A DNA stretch of 35,366 bases from a bacterium. GTDB taxonomy: Bacteria > Bacillota_I > Bacilli_A > RF39 > UBA660. Below the pieces are notes generated by a model. It searched no databases and was not told where the DNA came from. It saw nothing but the letters and a program-made list of their open reading frames with translations. Of the stretch, positions 12,950 to 35,366 are shown one piece after another; within the stretch, counting starts at the first letter, position 1; every line of letters starts with the position of its first letter. The stretch lies in the NCBI GenBank assembly GCA_029099845.1, contig JAQXOT010000003.1, positions 1 through 35,366 on the forward strand, given 5' to 3'. Both the position numbers and the translations under genes were made by a program.

Positions 12950-12978
12950 ATTATAACAAAGAAACGGAGAAATATGAA
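12950..12978 (-). promoter_or_regulatory. Candidate promoter of the ylbL operon
   Basis: On the minus strand an extended -10 box TGTTATAAT (hexamer at 12950-12955) is 17 bases from TTCATA, a four-of-six match to the -35 consensus. The -35 overlaps the start codon of the divergent ylbJ gene, so the two genes may interfere. Confidence 0.5.
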
Positions 12979-13858
12979 AAAAAAATATCAAAGTCTAATA
13001 ATTATTACTCTAATAACTTTACTAATATTCTATTTTCTTAATGCAAATATAATAGTAAAAAGTATTTTAGAGTATACCAATATTTTTTTAACAAAACTTT
13101 TTCCATCTAGCTTCATTATCTTTATTTTTTCTTCCCTTTTAATTGACTATGGTATTATAAATTTACTCTCAGCCAAAAAACTTAATGGTAATATTATTTA
13201 TGTTACTCTAATGAGTTTTATTAGTGGTTTTCCTAGTGGAACTAAATACACTAAAGAACTCCTAGATAAAAAATTAATATCACCAAAACTAGCTAACTAC
13301 CTAATAACCTATACAAACTTTCCAAATCCAATCTTTCTTTTAGGTCAAGTATCAACAATTTTAAATAAACGTCTCACTCTAAAAATATTCTTGAGTATTA
13401 TTATCAGTAATTTTTTAATTGCTATAATCTTTAAACCCAAAGAAGAATACCAAGAAAATCTCCAAAAAATGCCACCAACTGATTTTTCTCTTTCCCTAAA
13501 AAATGCTACTTATAATGCTATTAAGACACTACTAATTGTTTATAGTTCTTCCCTTTTCTTTTACTTAATTACTGTAATTATTAATAAATATTTAACACTT
13601 AAACCAATAAATTATGTTATCTTAAATGGGCTTTTTGATTTAACAAAAGGTATTTTTTCTTCAACCATAATTTCAAATATTAATAAACGAGCTCTTCTAA
13701 TTTTAATTTTTTTAAGTTTTGGCAGCATTTCCATTCACATTCAAACAAAAAGTATCATCGCTGATACTAAAATAAAATATAAAAATTTCTTTTTTGCAAG
13801 AATTATTCAAGTTTTAATAGCAATCCCAATCTTTCTTTTATTAATTAAAAATAATTAA
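12974..13858 (+). CDS. ylbJ: YlbJ-like integral membrane protein
   Basis: A 294-residue polytopic membrane protein with about seven or eight hydrophobic helices. The LTKLFPSSF block, the SFISGFPSGTKYTKELL block and the TNFPNPIFLLG block match the pattern of YlbJ, the sporulation integral membrane protein of the nucleoside-recognition (Gate) family; in B. subtilis YlbJ is needed for spore heat resistance. CGGAGAAAT precedes the ATG. It is one of three plus-strand genes, divergent from ylbL and overlapping the convergent pseudopilin gene by 14 bases. It is shorter than B. subtilis YlbJ (about 400 aa). Transported substrate is unknown. Confidence 0.75.
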   Translation: MKKKYQSLIIITLITLLIFYFLNANIIVKSILEYTNIFLTKLFPSSFIIFIFSSLLIDYGIINLLSAKKLNGNIIYVTLMSFISGFPSGTKYTKELLDKKLISPKLANYLITYTNFPNPIFLLGQVSTILNKRLTLKIFLSIIISNFLIAIIFKPKEEYQENLQKMPPTDFSLSLKNATYNAIKTLLIVYSSSLFFYLITVIINKYLTLKPINYVILNGLFDLTKGIFSSTIISNINKRALLILIFLSFGSISIHIQTKSIIADTKIKYKNFFFARIIQVLIAIPIFLLLIKNN

Positions 13859-14507
13859 TTGGGCAAACAATATCTATTCCATATCTTGTTCCAAGATCTG
13901 GGTGATAAAAACCAACATAAAAGCTAAATATACTATTATCCGTATCAATAATTACATTATTTATTCTAAAATCATATACTTTACATCCTTGATTACCACC
14001 TGTACATTTTGAACTATCAGTTGCCACATTATTACCATTATAGCCATATCCTAAATCAGGTAATTTATAGGTTGTATAATCATCACCACCATCAGTACCA
14101 TAACTAATTTCCAAAATATCATCTTGATCATTTAAACAATATGCCTCAGTAGAATCCAAACAGTCACCAAAATCCCGAGCATAAACAGCATTAACTCTCA
14201 ATACCTTCTTGCTGCCATCACGAAATGTTAATGTAATTTCATAATATTTTCTAGTCCCCGTATTTAATGTTGTACTATCATTAATCTTAGCATCAACAAG
14301 TCCTTTTTTTATTAGATCATCCTGTATTTCTTTCGTCAAAAGATTCTTATACGCAACAATTTTATCTTTATCTGATTCTATACTTTGTCTATTCTTATAT
14401 GAATTAACTGTCGTATACATAGAAACAACTATTATAACCATTAATATAAAAGAAACTAATATCTCAACTGCTGTTAAACCTTTATTATTAAGTTTTAATC
14501 TTTTCAT
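13845..14507 (-). CDS. Type IV pilus/competence pseudopilin
   Basis: A 220-residue prepilin-like protein. The class III signal is clear: basic leader MKRLKLNNKG, cleavage after Gly10, Glu at mature position +5 (LTAVE) and a hydrophobic helix of about 20 residues. The globular part has cysteine pairs near residues 118/126 and 163/170 that could form disulfides. It would sit as a minor subunit in a pilus or pseudopilus processed by a prepilin peptidase, which is not in this window. The start shares one base with the stop of the upstream pseudopilin (TAATG). No terminator separates it from convergent ylbJ. Confidence 0.88.
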   Translation of the reverse strand: MKRLKLNNKGLTAVEILVSFILMVIIVVSMYTTVNSYKNRQSIESDKDKIVAYKNLLTKEIQDDLIKKGLVDAKINDSTTLNTGTRKYYEITLTFRDGSKKVLRVNAVYARDFGDCLDSTEAYCLNDQDDILEISYGTDGGDDYTTYKLPDLGYGYNGNNVATDSSKCTGGNQGCKVYDFRINNVIIDTDNSIFSFYVGFYHPDLGTRYGIDIVCPINYF

Positions 14508-15127
14508 TATTTTTTCACCTCGATTGTTGAATAAGCATAGTAATTATTATCATCTTTAGTTCGGTGATACTCAACAATCACCCTATACTTAGCATAATTT
14601 AATGAAGCAATATTCTTATACTCAGGTAAATGTGCCACATAATCACTTAATCCTCCACTAAAAATACCATTTCCATCTTCATTTGAAGCCTTTTCCTTAA
14701 AGTCCGTTAACATATAAGATGTTATATATATGCAAGGCTTTCCCGTTGAAATTTCATTACCAGCATCATCTCTTTTAGCAATTTGCAATTTATCTACTAA
14801 ATTCTTACATAAATTTCTAGCTGTCGCATCATATAAAATATCACTATCACAATCAAAGCGATGATACTTGTTATTAATAATATCATAAGAAATACTTCCA
14901 GGTGTTGAACTATTACCAAAATCAACATCATTACTTTGGATAATCTTTTTCATCCAATAGATACCATACTTACCATCAACATCATCATAAACTTCTCTTT
15001 TCTCATATTCTGCCATTATCGGATACAAATTAGTATATATAATAGAAAATATCGCCATTACAAAAACGGTAACAACAAGTGTCTCTACTAACATAAATCC
15101 TTTATTGTTCAATTTAAACTTTTTCAT
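14507..15127 (-). CDS. Type IV pilus/competence pseudopilin
   Basis: A 206-residue prepilin-like protein with leader MKKFKLNNKG, cleavage before Phe, Glu at mature +5 (FMLVE) and a hydrophobic N-terminal helix. The leader is nearly identical to that of the next gene, suggesting duplication. Cysteines are at about 93, 108 and 133. AAGGAGAGAGTT precedes the ATG. It is first in a two-gene unit divergent from the pilus ATPase, with a TATAAT box in the 79-base spacer. Which minor pilin role it plays cannot be told from sequence. Confidence 0.88.
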   Translation of the reverse strand: MKKFKLNNKGFMLVETLVVTVFVMAIFSIIYTNLYPIMAEYEKREVYDDVDGKYGIYWMKKIIQSNDVDFGNSSTPGSISYDIINNKYHRFDCDSDILYDATARNLCKNLVDKLQIAKRDDAGNEISTGKPCIYITSYMLTDFKEKASNEDGNGIFSGGLSDYVAHLPEYKNIASLNYAKYRVIVEYHRTKDDNNYYAYSTIEVKK

Positions 15128-15215
15128 AACTCTCTCCTTGCTATTATAATAAAACTATTATATAATAAAATATAGTAAAATACCATAGCAAAGTAAACAA
15201 AAGGGGTTGAAAAAA

Positions 15216-18200
15216 ATGGTAGAAATGGAAGTTAGAAAAGTAACAAAAGGTGTAGAATCAAACATGGTAGCGTTCGATTTTGAACGTACTCCAATTACCC
15301 AAATAGCTGATTATATCATTATAACAGCCTCAAATAACGGGACATCAGATATCCACTTTGATCCCCGTGATGATAATATGATGGTAAGATTTCGTATTGA
15401 TGGTGATTTACAAGATTATACTTGTATTCCTAAACTTTATGAAAGAACTTTAACTACTCGTTTAAAACTTTTAGCTAGTATGAATATTACCGAATCACGA
15501 CTACCACAAGATGGTGCTATCAAAGGAGAATTTGGTGGTAAATACCTTGATATGCGTGTATCTTGTCTTCCTCTTAATACCGGAGAAAAAATAGTTATTC
15601 GTATCCTAGACTATACTAGAAGTTTGCAAGGTATTGATAACCTTGGTTTTAATCAAACTAACTTAAAAAAAATAAAACGTATGATGGGTGTTCCAAATGG
15701 TATTATCTTAGTAACCGGGGCTACTGGTTCAGGAAAATCAACTACAGTTTATTCTATTCTTCAAGAGCTTAATAAGCCAGAAGTAAATATTATCACCGTT
15801 GAAGACCCAATTGAAATGAACATTGAAGGAATGAATCAAGTTCAAGTAAACTCTGAAATTGGTATGACATTCGCAGCTGCCCTTCGTTCTATTTTACGTC
15901 AAGACCCAAACGTTATTCTAATCGGAGAAATTCGTGACTCAGAAACCGCACAAATTGCCGTTCGTGCCTCAATTACTGGGCACTTAGTTTTATCTACAAT
16001 CCATACCAATAATGCCCTAGCAACCATTGAACGTCTACTAGATATGGACGTAGAACGTTATCTATTATCTACTTCCCTAACGGGAATCATTGCCCAAAGA
16101 CTTGCTAAACAATTATGTACATCATGTCGAATTGAAAGAGAAACTACAAAATATGAAAAAAAAGTCTTTAAAAAATTTATGCATCGTGATGTAGACAAAA
16201 TTTATGATGCCAATCCAAAAGGTTGTGAAAATTGCCGTAAAGGTTATAAAGGGCGTATTGCTATTCACGAAGTTTTGGAATTTGATGATGAAATAAGAAG
16301 TGCAGTTTCCAATCCAAAGTTAACTAAAGAAGAATTATCAGAAATGGTATACAATGAAAAAACAATTAGTATGTTACAAGACGCTTTAGGAAAAGCTATA
16401 TCTGGCTTAACTAGTTTTGAAGAAGTATATCGTGTTATTGAAATTGAAACTGATCCTGATGATGATACAGCTTATCTTACTCGTGCTATTGAAGACGATG
16501 AGGAAGAAGAAGACACTAAAAAGGAAACAGTTCAAACTAATTCACTTGATGACGTTGCAACTAAATCAGCAAATCAAGTATCAACAAACCAAACCAATCT
16601 TCAAAATCTGCCAAGATTTAATATTAATGGAACTGAAATTACTGATATTAAAAACATCAAAGCAACTAATATTAAACCAGTCGAGGCTGGGCAAACTCAA
16701 ACAACACAGCAGCCGTCAGTTCAAGCACCCCAAGTTAAAACCCCTAATCAAGCTCCAGCTCCAGCTCCAACTCAAGTTCCAGCTCAACCTCAACAACCAG
16801 TACCACAAAATAAACCAGCTGTATTACCACAAGTTGCTACTCTAACCAAGGAACAACAACTTGCTAATGCCCAAATGGAAAAAGCCAAAAAAGAACAAGC
16901 TGCCGCCCTTGCAAAACAGCAAAGCATCGTAGAAAAACCAATAATGTTAACTCAGGCCCAAGCTGAAGCTCAAGCAAAAATGGCTAAAGAAAAATTAAAT
17001 GCTATAACTGAAAAAGAAAATGAGAAAAAGCTAGCAGAAGTACTCGCAAAACCACAAAAAGTTACTAGTCAAAAATTAGTAGTTGCTAATCCAAATTTAA
17101 ATCCTACCATAGTAACTGCTGGTGAAAAGAAACAAATGCCTGCTCAAACTACTCCCCCTCAACAACAACCTTCAAATCTATATCAGTTACCAAAATCAAC
17201 AACACAACAGCAACAACCAAAAATTGCTCCACCAAAGATTGAAAAAATTGAAAAAGCTATCCCAGAACTAAATATTTCAATTCAAGCAGCCAAAGAACAA
17301 ACGCTTCTTCCAACTCAAACCAAAGCAGACTCACCACTAACTGAAGAAGATAATACATTCAATGAAAAAGATAAAGTACAAGAAATTGATATTAATAAAA
17401 TTAGCAAATCCCAAGATTTAAAGAAAGAAGAAAATCTAGCTAATAATCCACTTAAACCAACCATAAAACCAGAAGATGATAAAAATAAAGATAGCTTTGT
17501 TCCAATAATTATAGAATCTTTCGCAATTGATGACGATAAAAATCAACCAAAATTAAAAGAAATTAAAAAAGATGAAATAATAAAACCAATAGAAGAAAAA
17601 GGTTTAGTCAATAAAACGCCAAGCACTACAGAACTAAAAACTAGCGAAGCCAATACTATTCCTAAACCTATCCCTCCAAAAATGGAAACAATAAACTTAA
17701 CAAATTTCAAAACAACACCAGTTGCTACTACTCCATCAAAGATTCCAACTATTGTAGATGCACCAAAAGTTGAAAAAACGGAATTACCTAAGGCAGCAGA
17801 AACAACTACTCCAGTAGTTAAACCAACTGCTACTACTCCATCAAAAATTCCAACTATTGTGGATGCACCAAAAGTTGAAAAGACAGAATTACCTAAAGTA
17901 CAATCAACACTTACTACTGAAAACAGAGAAGATAGCGTTCAAATATCTCCACTTCCAAAAAAAGAAAAACCAAATATTTTTGAACTTCCAGCTGTTAACA
18001 CAAACGAAAAAATTAATTCAGCTATAAACGCTAACGAGTCACAGGAAAAAGAAAAAAAACCATTCATTACAGAAATGAAAGTTCCTAGTGTTAAACCAGA
18101 AGAAATTAAATCAGAAGTAACACCAAAGATCACAAAGCAAGAGGAAACAACAAAAACAACTTCTACTGAAAAGAAACCATTCATTACAGAAATGAAAGTT

Positions 18201-18950
18201 CCTAGTGCTAAGCCAGAAGAAGTTAAATCAGAAGTAACACCAAATGTCACACAACAAGAAGAACCAGCAAAAACTACTTCTACTGAAAAGAAACCATTCA
18301 TTACGGAAATGAAGATTACAAGTGCTAAACCAGTTGAAGCAACCTCAAAGATTACTAAAGAAGATAAAATACAACCTATTTCTACCGAAATGAAAAAAAC
18401 TACTCCTAAGTCAGAAGAAAAACAAGAAGTAAATAAAGAAGTTTCAAAAAAAGATGAAAAAGAAAAAACTACTTCTGCTGAAAAGAAACCATTTATTACA
18501 GAAATGAAAAAAACTGCTTCAGTTGCCACTAAAAAAGAAGAAAAAGATACAACTCCTAAAACAGAAGTTCCAAACAATACAGAACCTAAGAAAACCTTCT
18601 CCTTTAGTGTTGAGCCAAAAGAAAAAGATAAACAAATAAAACCAAATAATTCAAATGCTGATGAAAAAATGGTAGGAATTAAAGAAAATACAAAAAAAGA
18701 TAATTCTGAAATAGAAAAAGATAAAATAGAAAAAATAAAAGAAAGTACTACAACAAACGAAGAAAAGAAGCAAATTACTAAAAGCGAAAATATTCAAACA
18801 AAAAAAGAACAAAGTACTGAAACAAAAGACTCTAAAACTTCAGACAAAACAAATACCAATATACCAAAAGATAGCAAAGGTAAAACAAACACAACAGAAG
18901 TTTTAGATCTAGACATTGATGGAGAACTTCTAACATTAGGTGAAGATTAA
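15216..18950 (+). CDS. PilB/GspE-type secretion ATPase with a very long repetitive disordered tail
   Basis: A 1244-residue protein. Residues 1-410 form a complete type II secretion/type IV pilus assembly ATPase: Walker A GATGSGKST (168-176), Asp-box region, Walker B ILIGE (234-238), His box, and a tetracysteine zinc motif (Cys301, 304, 337, 340). It drives pilin polymerisation at the inner membrane face. The N-terminal MshEN domain of classical PilB is absent. From about residue 412 to the end the protein is low-complexity, rich in Lys, Glu, Thr, Pro and Gln, with tandem 39-residue units and a duplicated 23-residue block, ending in an acidic LDLDIDGELL segment. Typical relatives end near the core. 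The ATG at 15216 follows AAGGGGTTG; an in-frame TTG nine bases upstream is not needed. A terminator follows directly. Confidence 0.92.
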   Translation: MVEMEVRKVTKGVESNMVAFDFERTPITQIADYIIITASNNGTSDIHFDPRDDNMMVRFRIDGDLQDYTCIPKLYERTLTTRLKLLASMNITESRLPQDGAIKGEFGGKYLDMRVSCLPLNTGEKIVIRILDYTRSLQGIDNLGFNQTNLKKIKRMMGVPNGIILVTGATGSGKSTTVYSILQELNKPEVNIITVEDPIEMNIEGMNQVQVNSEIGMTFAAALRSILRQDPNVILIGEIRDSETAQIAVRASITGHLVLSTIHTNNALATIERLLDMDVERYLLSTSLTGIIAQRLAKQLCTSCRIERETTKYEKKVFKKFMHRDVDKIYDANPKGCENCRKGYKGRIAIHEVLEFDDEIRSAVSNPKLTKEELSEMVYNEKTISMLQDALGKAISGLTSFEEVYRVIEIETDPDDDTAYLTRAIEDDEEEEDTKKETVQTNSLDDVATKSANQVSTNQTNLQNLPRFNINGTEITDIKNIKATNIKPVEAGQTQTTQQPSVQAPQVKTPNQAPAPAPTQVPAQPQQPVPQNKPAVLPQVATLTKEQQLANAQMEKAKKEQAAALAKQQSIVEKPIMLTQAQAEAQAKMAKEKLNAITEKENEKKLAEVLAKPQKVTSQKLVVANPNLNPTIVTAGEKKQMPAQTTPPQQQPSNLYQLPKSTTQQQQPKIAPPKIEKIEKAIPELNISIQAAKEQTLLPTQTKADSPLTEEDNTFNEKDKVQEIDINKISKSQDLKKEENLANNPLKPTIKPEDDKNKDSFVPIIIESFAIDDDKNQPKLKEIKKDEIIKPIEEKGLVNKTPSTTELKTSEANTIPKPIPPKMETINLTNFKTTPVATTPSKIPTIVDAPKVEKTELPKAAETTTPVVKPTATTPSKIPTIVDAPKVEKTELPKVQSTLTTENREDSVQISPLPKKEKPNIFELPAVNTNEKINSAINANESQEKEKKPFITEMKVPSVKPEEIKSEVTPKITKQEETTKTTSTEKKPFITEMKVPSAKPEEVKSEVTPNVTQQEEPAKTTSTEKKPFITEMKITSAKPVEATSKITKEDKIQPISTEMKKTTPKSEEKQEVNKEVSKKDEKEKTTSAEKKPFITEMKKTASVATKKEEKDTTPKTEVPNNTEPKKTFSFSVEPKEKDKQIKPNNSNADEKMVGIKENTKKDNSEIEKDKIEKIKESTTTNEEKKQITKSENIQTKKEQSTETKDSKTSDKTNTNIPKDSKGKTNTTEVLDLDIDGELLTLGED
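17724..17897 (+). repeat. Duplicated 69-bp coding block in the ATPase tail
   Basis: Two copies (17724-17792 and 17829-17897) each encode 23 residues beginning ATTPSKIPTIVDAPK and ending in TELPK. They are offset by 105 bases, keep the frame and differ at a few third positions, so the protein sequence is preserved while the DNA has drifted. Confidence 0.85.
18051..18512 (+). repeat. Tandem 117-bp coding repeats in the ATPase tail
   Basis: Units starting EKKPFITEMK begin at 18051, 18168, 18285 and 18480. The first two steps are exactly 117 bases (39 residues); the last is longer and contains a degenerate half-unit STEMKKT. Units decay toward the 3' side. The EKKPFITEMK core is the best-kept part, whereas the flanking KPEE/SEVTP segments vary. 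Confidence 0.88.
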
Positions 18951-34810: not shown

Positions 34811-35366
34811 CTAGCTTTCAACACAAGTATTTAATGTAAGACCAGCCTTTAAAGCTCCTGAAGTATCATCAGAAATTTCAATATCATTCTTTTGGTCATT
34901 AGTTAAAGTCATTTTAACGTGTCCTCTTGCTAAAGCATCTGAAACAACTGGAGTAGTTGTATCATCATAAATTCCATGAGTACCATCAGAAATAGCAACA
35001 TAGAACTTAGTAACACGTTTTGGTTCAGTACCAGAATTATCATTTGAAATATTAACTCTTACATAACCACTAATGTCACGATTACCCCAAGATGACTTAC
35101 CACCCTGATCAACTAATACTGGTAAATTTTTTCTAGCATTATCTTTAGTATTAATTAAAATGTAATAATCTCCTGCATCAACTGCAGATGAAACTACATT
35201 ACCAGCAGAAGAAGAACAAGTAAGCCCATCAGCTGTCCATAATGTTCTAGCTGCATTAGCATATGACTTAGCAATATCTACAAATGTATCCTTTCTTGAA
35301 TTTTCAATAACTCTAGATACTGAAGGAATCGCAACCATCATTAAGATACCCATGATTACGATAACT
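34811..35366 (-). CDS. Type IV pilin-like protein, 5' end outside the window
   Basis: The frame stays open to the window edge. It begins inside the pilin hydrophobic helix (VIVIMGILMMVAIPSVSRVIE), so the prepilin leader, cleavage site and Glu5 are missing. The internal ATG at 35353 is not the true start. At least 184 residues are visible. The globular domain has a Cys (in GLTCSSS) and another near the C-terminus (LNTCVES), which probably make the disulfide loop of many type IV pilins. This would be a structural subunit of the machine driven by the ATPase at 15.2-19.0 kb. Whether it is the major pilin is not shown; the strong terminator fits high expression. Confidence 0.87.
   Translation of the reverse strand, partial: VIVIMGILMMVAIPSVSRVIENSRKDTFVDIAKSYANAARTLWTADGLTCSSSAGNVVSSAVDAGDYYILINTKDNARKNLPVLVDQGGKSSWGNRDISGYVRVNISNDNSGTEPKRVTKFYVAISDGTHGIYDDTTTPVVSDALARGHVKMTLTNDQKNDIEISDDTSGALKAGLTLNTCVES

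Follow-up and report, generated by a model that had tools for sequence, protein, structure and literature searches.

The window analysed here is the whole stretch of 35,366 nucleotides (positions 1 to 35,366 of contig JAQXOT010000003.1, assembly GCA_029099845.1) from a bacterium of the GTDB lineage Bacilli_A, RF39, UBA660. It contains a pilus assembly ATPase gene that runs on far beyond the point where its catalytic core is complete. Three questions are raised by this locus: whether core and tail really form one protein, whether the arrangement is peculiar to this genome, and what so long an arm could do for a pilus motor.

A complete motor core in one frame with a long tail

A single open frame occupies positions 15207-18950 of the forward strand, that is 1247 codons when counted from TTG 15207. 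Two signs favour ATG 15216 as the start: AAGGGG lies nine bases upstream, and conservation with the congeners begins at that methionine. Residue numbers of the core (27-409) and of the tail (411-1247) count from TTG 15207. Features are collected in Table 1.

Compared to Pfam T2SSE (PF00437), the core was matched over residues 27-409 (1.2e-119, 399.8 bits for a cut-off of 24.9), covering profile positions 5-370 of 370, hence to the end of the model. Walker A, the Asp and His boxes and Walker B are intact, and were invariant across an alignment of 11 family members, as were the four cysteines (pairs CTSC and CENC) of the tetracysteine metal-binding motif in the CTD. The best structure matches found by Foldseek were PilB, PilF and GspE, which are also the closest solved proteins (41-44% identity). 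The scores stayed below the curated equivalog values for PilB (TIGR02538, 450.5 bits for 675.65 needed), GspE (TIGR02533, 464.2 for 630.25) and ComGA (NF041000, 265.1 for 300), much of the shortfall for the first two being due to a missing N1D domain (see below). It is thus a member of the T2SSE superfamily and, judged by its core and its context, a PilB/GspE-like motor. In this fold, the core forms a hexameric motor beneath PilC, and the ATPase of the window is presumably a hexamer as well.

As the earlier note had claimed, core and tail are fused: the T2SSE match extends to residue 409 and is followed by 837 codons in the same frame. No stop was present in the coding frame of the tail stretch, compared to 21-103 across the other five frames. 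A 212-aa antisense ORF at 17939-18577 was considered as a gene and dismissed as a composition effect. Aromatic residues make up 1.7% of the tail, Cys and Trp are absent, and P/E/S/T/K/Q/N/D account for 72%. AlphaFold2, run with an alignment of three sequences only, returned pLDDT values below 50 at 717 of the 837 tail residues and mostly between 80 and 90 in the core. Since alignments are shallow, such low values are only an indication of the disorder that had been proposed for the tail, and the low-complexity composition agrees with it. The exceptions were the two helices and the weak helix listed in Table 1, together with a slightly higher pLDDT towards the very end. No match to the tail was found in Pfam and NCBIfam, and when used as a query in its own genome (E up to 10), it recovered only itself.

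The repeats were found as described in the earlier note, with a tandem 39-residue unit and a 22-23-residue unit; their copy number is given as assembled, the source being a draft genome of 28 contigs. The note had added that copies differ at third positions and keep the protein. This is true of the 22-codon duplicate (5 synonymous and 0 nonsynonymous differences), and only partly so of the 39-codon one (5 synonymous and 7 nonsynonymous).

Upstream, the gene shares its intergenic region with a divergent minor pilin gene, for which a Pfam search gave no match. The same divergent arrangement is present at locus L060. A YlbJ-like sporulation membrane protein (12974-13858, +, score under the NCBIfam cut-off) adjoins the minor pilins, and a similar gene occupies the same place in L060. 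A pilin-like protein (34811-35365, −) is cut by the end of the window.

Table 1. Features of the ATPase locus. Positions are those of the window; residue ranges in the tail count from its first residue unless given as 411-1247.
Feature	Position	Strand	Basis or remark
Second minor pilin	13845..14507	−	weak ComGE-like match
Minor pilin, prepilin-like, KGFMLVETLVVTVF N-terminus	14507..15127	−	divergent neighbour; upstream intergenic region common with the ATPase gene
AAGGGG, probable ribosome-binding site	15201..15206	+	nine bases 5′ of ATG 15216; read from sequence
Gene of the pilB/gspE-type assembly ATPase with its very long C-terminal tail	15216..18950	+	1244 aa from ATG 15216; TTG 15207 also possible
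T2SSE ATPase core: Walker A GATGSGKST, ILIGEIRD, CxxC...CxxC pairs	15285..16433	+	Pfam T2SSE, motifs, Foldseek
Disordered tail (predicted), 837 residues (411-1247)	16437..18947	+	composition, frame stops, AlphaFold2
Core-proximal acidic junction IEIETDPDDDTAYLTRAIEDD	16437..16499	+	start [IV][ED][LI][DE]DD common to family
Conserved island PAVLPQVATLTKEQQLA	16815..16865	+	congener comparison
Two predicted helices, tail residues 138-163 and 173-204	16848..17048	+	AlphaFold2, pLDDT up to about 90
Conserved island PKIEKIEKAIPELNISIQ	17232..17285	+	congener comparison
Conserved island FNEKDKVQEIDINKISKSQDLKKEE	17358..17432	+	weakly helical in model (tail residues 319-336)
TTPSKIPTIVDAPKVEKTELPK, first copy of 22-23-residue unit	17727..17792	+	repeat comparison
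TTPSKIPTIVDAPKVEKTELPK, second copy	17832..17897	+	identical protein, 5 synonymous differences
39-residue tandem repeat, unit 1, starts EKKPFITEMK	18051..18167	+	repeat comparison
39-residue tandem repeat, unit 2	18168..18284	+	followed by diverged EKKPFITEMK copies (KKPFITEMK at 18288, 18483)
C-terminal LDLDIDGELLTLGED	18903..18947	+	12/15 residues kept in congener G002

Tails in the genus and in the family

A long tail was fused to the core in all three genus genomes of the collection. It measures 837 aa in the window and 970 aa in G002, where it is complete; in G001 it is cut by the contig end, within a tandem array, and has a length of at least 686 aa. The congeners keep the same fused tail with no stop, and core and tail were never separate genes in any relative read. 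Recent duplications are present in all three congeners, with repeat units that are different in each, so that a shared assembly error is no explanation. An artefact, by misassembly or a missed stop joining two genes, could be thought of for one contig of a 28-contig draft, as repeats can cause misassembly, but it is already refuted by the two other genus genomes, which share the architecture with different repeats, and by the shorter tails found family-wide.

Conservation inside the tail was then compared between congeners. Omega was 0.04-0.07 for the core and 0.25-1 for most of the tail, the tail figures being rough because dS is near or above 1. The last 15 residues were 80% identical to those of G002 (omega 0.11), compared to 31% for the preceding 320 residues. 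Four tail stretches exceeded the permutation threshold, namely the acidic junction, PAVLPQVATLTKEQQ, PKIEKIEKAIPELNI and FNEKDKVQEIDINKISKSQDL, and the conserved islands and the C-terminus coincide partly with locally raised pLDDT. The KKPFITEMK peptide is found four times in the tail of the window and three times, exactly, in G002. A DNA-pattern search detected it nowhere else in the three genus genomes, and there was none in G001 within the 686 residues visible before the contig end. In this genus the tail changes rapidly over the greater part of its length, but a few islands, KKPFITEMK and the C-terminal LDLDIDGELLTLGED are kept. The selection on the tail suggested by the earlier note finds support only in patches, such as the last 15 residues.

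At a threshold of E <= 1e-60, the core was found in 180 of 193 family genomes; relatives with names are uncultured Bacilli/Tenericutes assemblies, some from ruminant guts. Complete tails could be read in 123 family members, and in every one of them a tail of variable length follows the conserved core (median 83 aa, 90th percentile 233). The longest are those of G002 and the window, the third being of 421 aa. Length ranges from 5 to 970 aa across genera, and two members of the same genus, G015 and G181, have tails of 84 and 257 aa. Nearly all tails open with [IV][ED][LI][DE]DD in some form and 94% have a net negative charge; the larger part of the tail sequence shows no conservation from one genus to the next. 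In relatives outside the family, which range from other Bacillota to Proteobacteria, assembly ATPases end 2-22 residues past the core, with the exception of one Nitrospirota protein with a zinc-ribbon-like end. The trait is thus shared by the whole family, and the window shows it in an extreme form. The earlier note knew of no described assembly ATPase with this layout, and in the open-access literature searched we found no PilB or GspE that carries a long disordered tail at its C-terminus.

In other genera, 27 of 112 tails end with an acidic-hydrophobic tip (EVLDL, YEVLDL, DIDILDL, DDDLMNMDF), for 1.8 expected by shuffling, and a stricter form ends 12 tails for 0.12 expected. These ratios overstate significance, because the motif was chosen once the sequences had been inspected, and because the family members share ancestry. 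The recurring tip suggests that short tails may act as a linker plus docking peptide. Among tails of at least 200 aa, the class of the window, none of 15 has it; the EVLDL of the window is placed 17 residues before the C-terminus, and may be there by chance.

The best assembly ATPase of the family genome G035 (C48, 5163-6320) is only 42% identical to the core of the window, in a 609-aa frame with no MshEN match. It is possibly a different or acquired system.

Loss of N1D and extension of PilC

All nine outgroup genomes that encode a long PilB gave an N1D (MshEN) match, and the 37 family genomes (that of the window and 36 relatives) gave none. Residues before the core number 0-12 in nearly all family frames, versus about 140-208 in relatives outside the family. 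The ATPase of the window has no N1D/GSPII (MshEN) match, and no room for this domain upstream of its core. PilN was absent in family searches. PilM matches in the family were confined to frames of FtsA or MreB size, the one in the genome of the window lying about 1.9 kb upstream of ftsZ; a divergent stator is possible. A PilC platform and, by its sequence, an A24-like peptidase are located on contig C14 of the same genome, and the prepilin-like genes are in the window.

PilC itself is longer in the family, with frames of 419-770 aa versus 400-412 in outgroups. The extra part is N-terminal and nearly always present. In the genus of the window it is P/Q/N-rich with a conserved SITGAP, and measures roughly 149 residues in the PilC of the window's genome (L140, 10112-11764, −); in many other genera it is made of a hydrophobic plus a basic stretch. 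In G007 (L213), a 365-residue Lys/Glu-rich N-terminal extension (net +64) comes after the hydrophobic stretch. PilC extensions tend to be basic (86%), in contrast to the acidic charge of most PilB tails. The length of the PilB tail did not correlate with that of the PilC extension (rho −0.21, p 0.28, n 30), and the charges, of opposite signs in most genomes, did not correlate either.

As read from these sequences, the clade has exchanged N-terminal motor material for C-terminal, and also extended its platform protein. The loss of N1D and the gain of a tail seem to go back to a single event in a single lineage, and for this reason their association has no statistical weight and is no proof of a functional link. 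Because C-terminal tails are general in the family, and the family has lost N1D, the protein of the window is not a one-off fusion.

A second T2SSE ATPase of the genome, Tad/VirB11-like and 562 aa long (L141, 6851-8536, −; contig C20, about 36.9-38.5 kb), also has a P/Q-rich low-complexity C-terminal tail. Beside it are two short TadB/TadC-like membrane proteins and a 268-aa CpaB-like protein. A 624-aa membrane protein at L141 (518-2389, −) has a PPTQQT/PPAQQT repeat at its end.

Possible roles of the tail and comparison with known systems

The reading we prefer, with a probability of roughly 0.4, is that the tail is a flexible docking or tethering arm standing in for the lost link between N1D and the stator. 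Each subunit would run on past its last core helix as a long disordered arm, which by flexible multivalent docking would do what the N1D-PilM contact does elsewhere, and would hold the motor at the pilus base or bring it to a cell site. Binding points would be the acidic junction, the islands, the repeated KKPFITEMK and the C-terminal LDLDIDGELLTLGED, and the repeat-expanded stretches between them would serve as spacers. The docking, its partner and the replacement of N1D are what we infer. A tether or scaffold had been suggested in the earlier note, and is plausible. In favour of the docking arm are the tails found family-wide, the missing N1D, the extended PilC, the patchy conservation within the genus and the tip that recurs on shorter tails. 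Against it weigh the apparently single origin of N1D loss and tail gain, the lack of correlation between PilB tails and PilC extensions, the absence of the tip from tails of at least 200 aa, the divergence of most tail sequence between genera, and the example of ComGA systems. In model systems, N1D likely interfaces with the PilM stator (PMC11656802), and the Caulobacter motor CpaF has a 79-residue N-terminal disordered region needed for full pilus activity, and not for ATPase activity (PMC12019362). In a wider form, which we consider unlikely, the family would have replaced the folded N1D-PilM contact by disordered, partly complementary arms, acidic and C-terminal on the ATPase, mostly basic and N-terminal on PilC. 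In the genus of the window, the arm would then have grown to 800 to 970 residues on each subunit, or about 5000 on a hexamer, and would form a multivalent scaffold.

The main rival to the docking arm is a weakly constrained, repeat-inflated linker that would be mostly dispensable. Loss of N1D would have relaxed the C-terminus, slippage and repeat duplication would have inflated it, and only the junction and the last residues would matter. The recent duplications of a different unit in each congener fit such a history, as do the omega values near 0.5-1 in the greater part of the tail, the spread of lengths between genera and within one of them, and the low-complexity stretches of several other proteins of the genome. 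Nevertheless, the long frame has stayed open in all genus members over 837, 970 and at least 686 codons, the C-terminal end persists together with several islands and the KKPFITEMK unit, and the 22-codon repeat has undergone synonymous change only. We hold this linker to be possible, if somewhat unlikely. We consider it improbable that the tail acts in regulation, for example through autoinhibition or phosphorylation, as an arm that would fold onto the core or onto adjacent subunits and set motor activity. A composition rich in Thr, Ser, Lys and Glu would suit this role, B. subtilis FtsZ is reported to have a phosphorylated autoinhibitory disordered tail (PMC12747378), and the disordered region of CpaF has been proposed to act allosterically (PMC12019362), but AlphaFold2 places no segment of the tail confidently on the core (single chain, shallow alignment). 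Alternatively, KKPFITEMK copies could be stickers that crosslink motors, or recruit a genus-specific partner, so as to concentrate pilus machines at one site as a condensate or cluster. The four copies in the window and three exact ones in G002, in genomes that have the peptide nowhere else, are in line with this, but no copy is present in the visible part of the G001 tail, and we find such a scaffold quite improbable.

How a pilus motor engages with its machine and leaves it is understood only in outline. The strongest candidate for the contact is N1D, which is also the part resolved least well. Here a large clade that has given up N1D, and apparently the stator too, still keeps one PilB-type assembly ATPase whose C-terminal arm is obligatory and yet free to vary. 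This amounts to a natural experiment, in which one can test whether a disordered tether can replace a folded stator contact, and the genus of the window is the extreme case, with a tail twice the size of the motor.

Of the known systems, the ATPase of the window has in common with PilB and GspE (type IV pilus and type II secretion ATPases) a full N2D-CTD core, Walker A, ILIGEIRD and the tetracysteine motif, as well as a context of adjoining minor pilins with PilC and a prepilin peptidase elsewhere in the genome. It differs from them by the absence of N1D/MshEN and by its 837-aa disordered C-terminal tail, whereas known members end within a few residues. With ComGA, the competence pilus ATPase, it shares the lack of N1D, and PilM and PilN were not detected; unlike ComGA, it keeps a full C-terminal domain with cysteine pairs, has a tail, and is not in an operon with pilC. 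ComGA systems function without PilM, and to our knowledge they do so with neither N1D nor a tail. FtsZ, with its C-terminal linker and peptide, offers an analogy of layout only, that of a catalytic core, a fast-evolving disordered linker and a more conserved end. There is no homology, and the end peptide of the window is unlike the FtsZ end of its own genome, YDIPPFLRDRNY. An FtsZ-like end peptide was accordingly rejected for the tails, G106 (L189) being the sole case in 123, with an end, FIDIPSILRQ, that resembles its own FtsZ end DDIPIFLRERSF. The Tad pilus ATPase CpaF of Caulobacter has, like the ATPase of the window, a disordered extension outside the catalytic core of a pilus motor (PMC12019362). 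The CpaF region is N-terminal and belongs to another ATPase subfamily, whereas that of the window is C-terminal and ten times longer.
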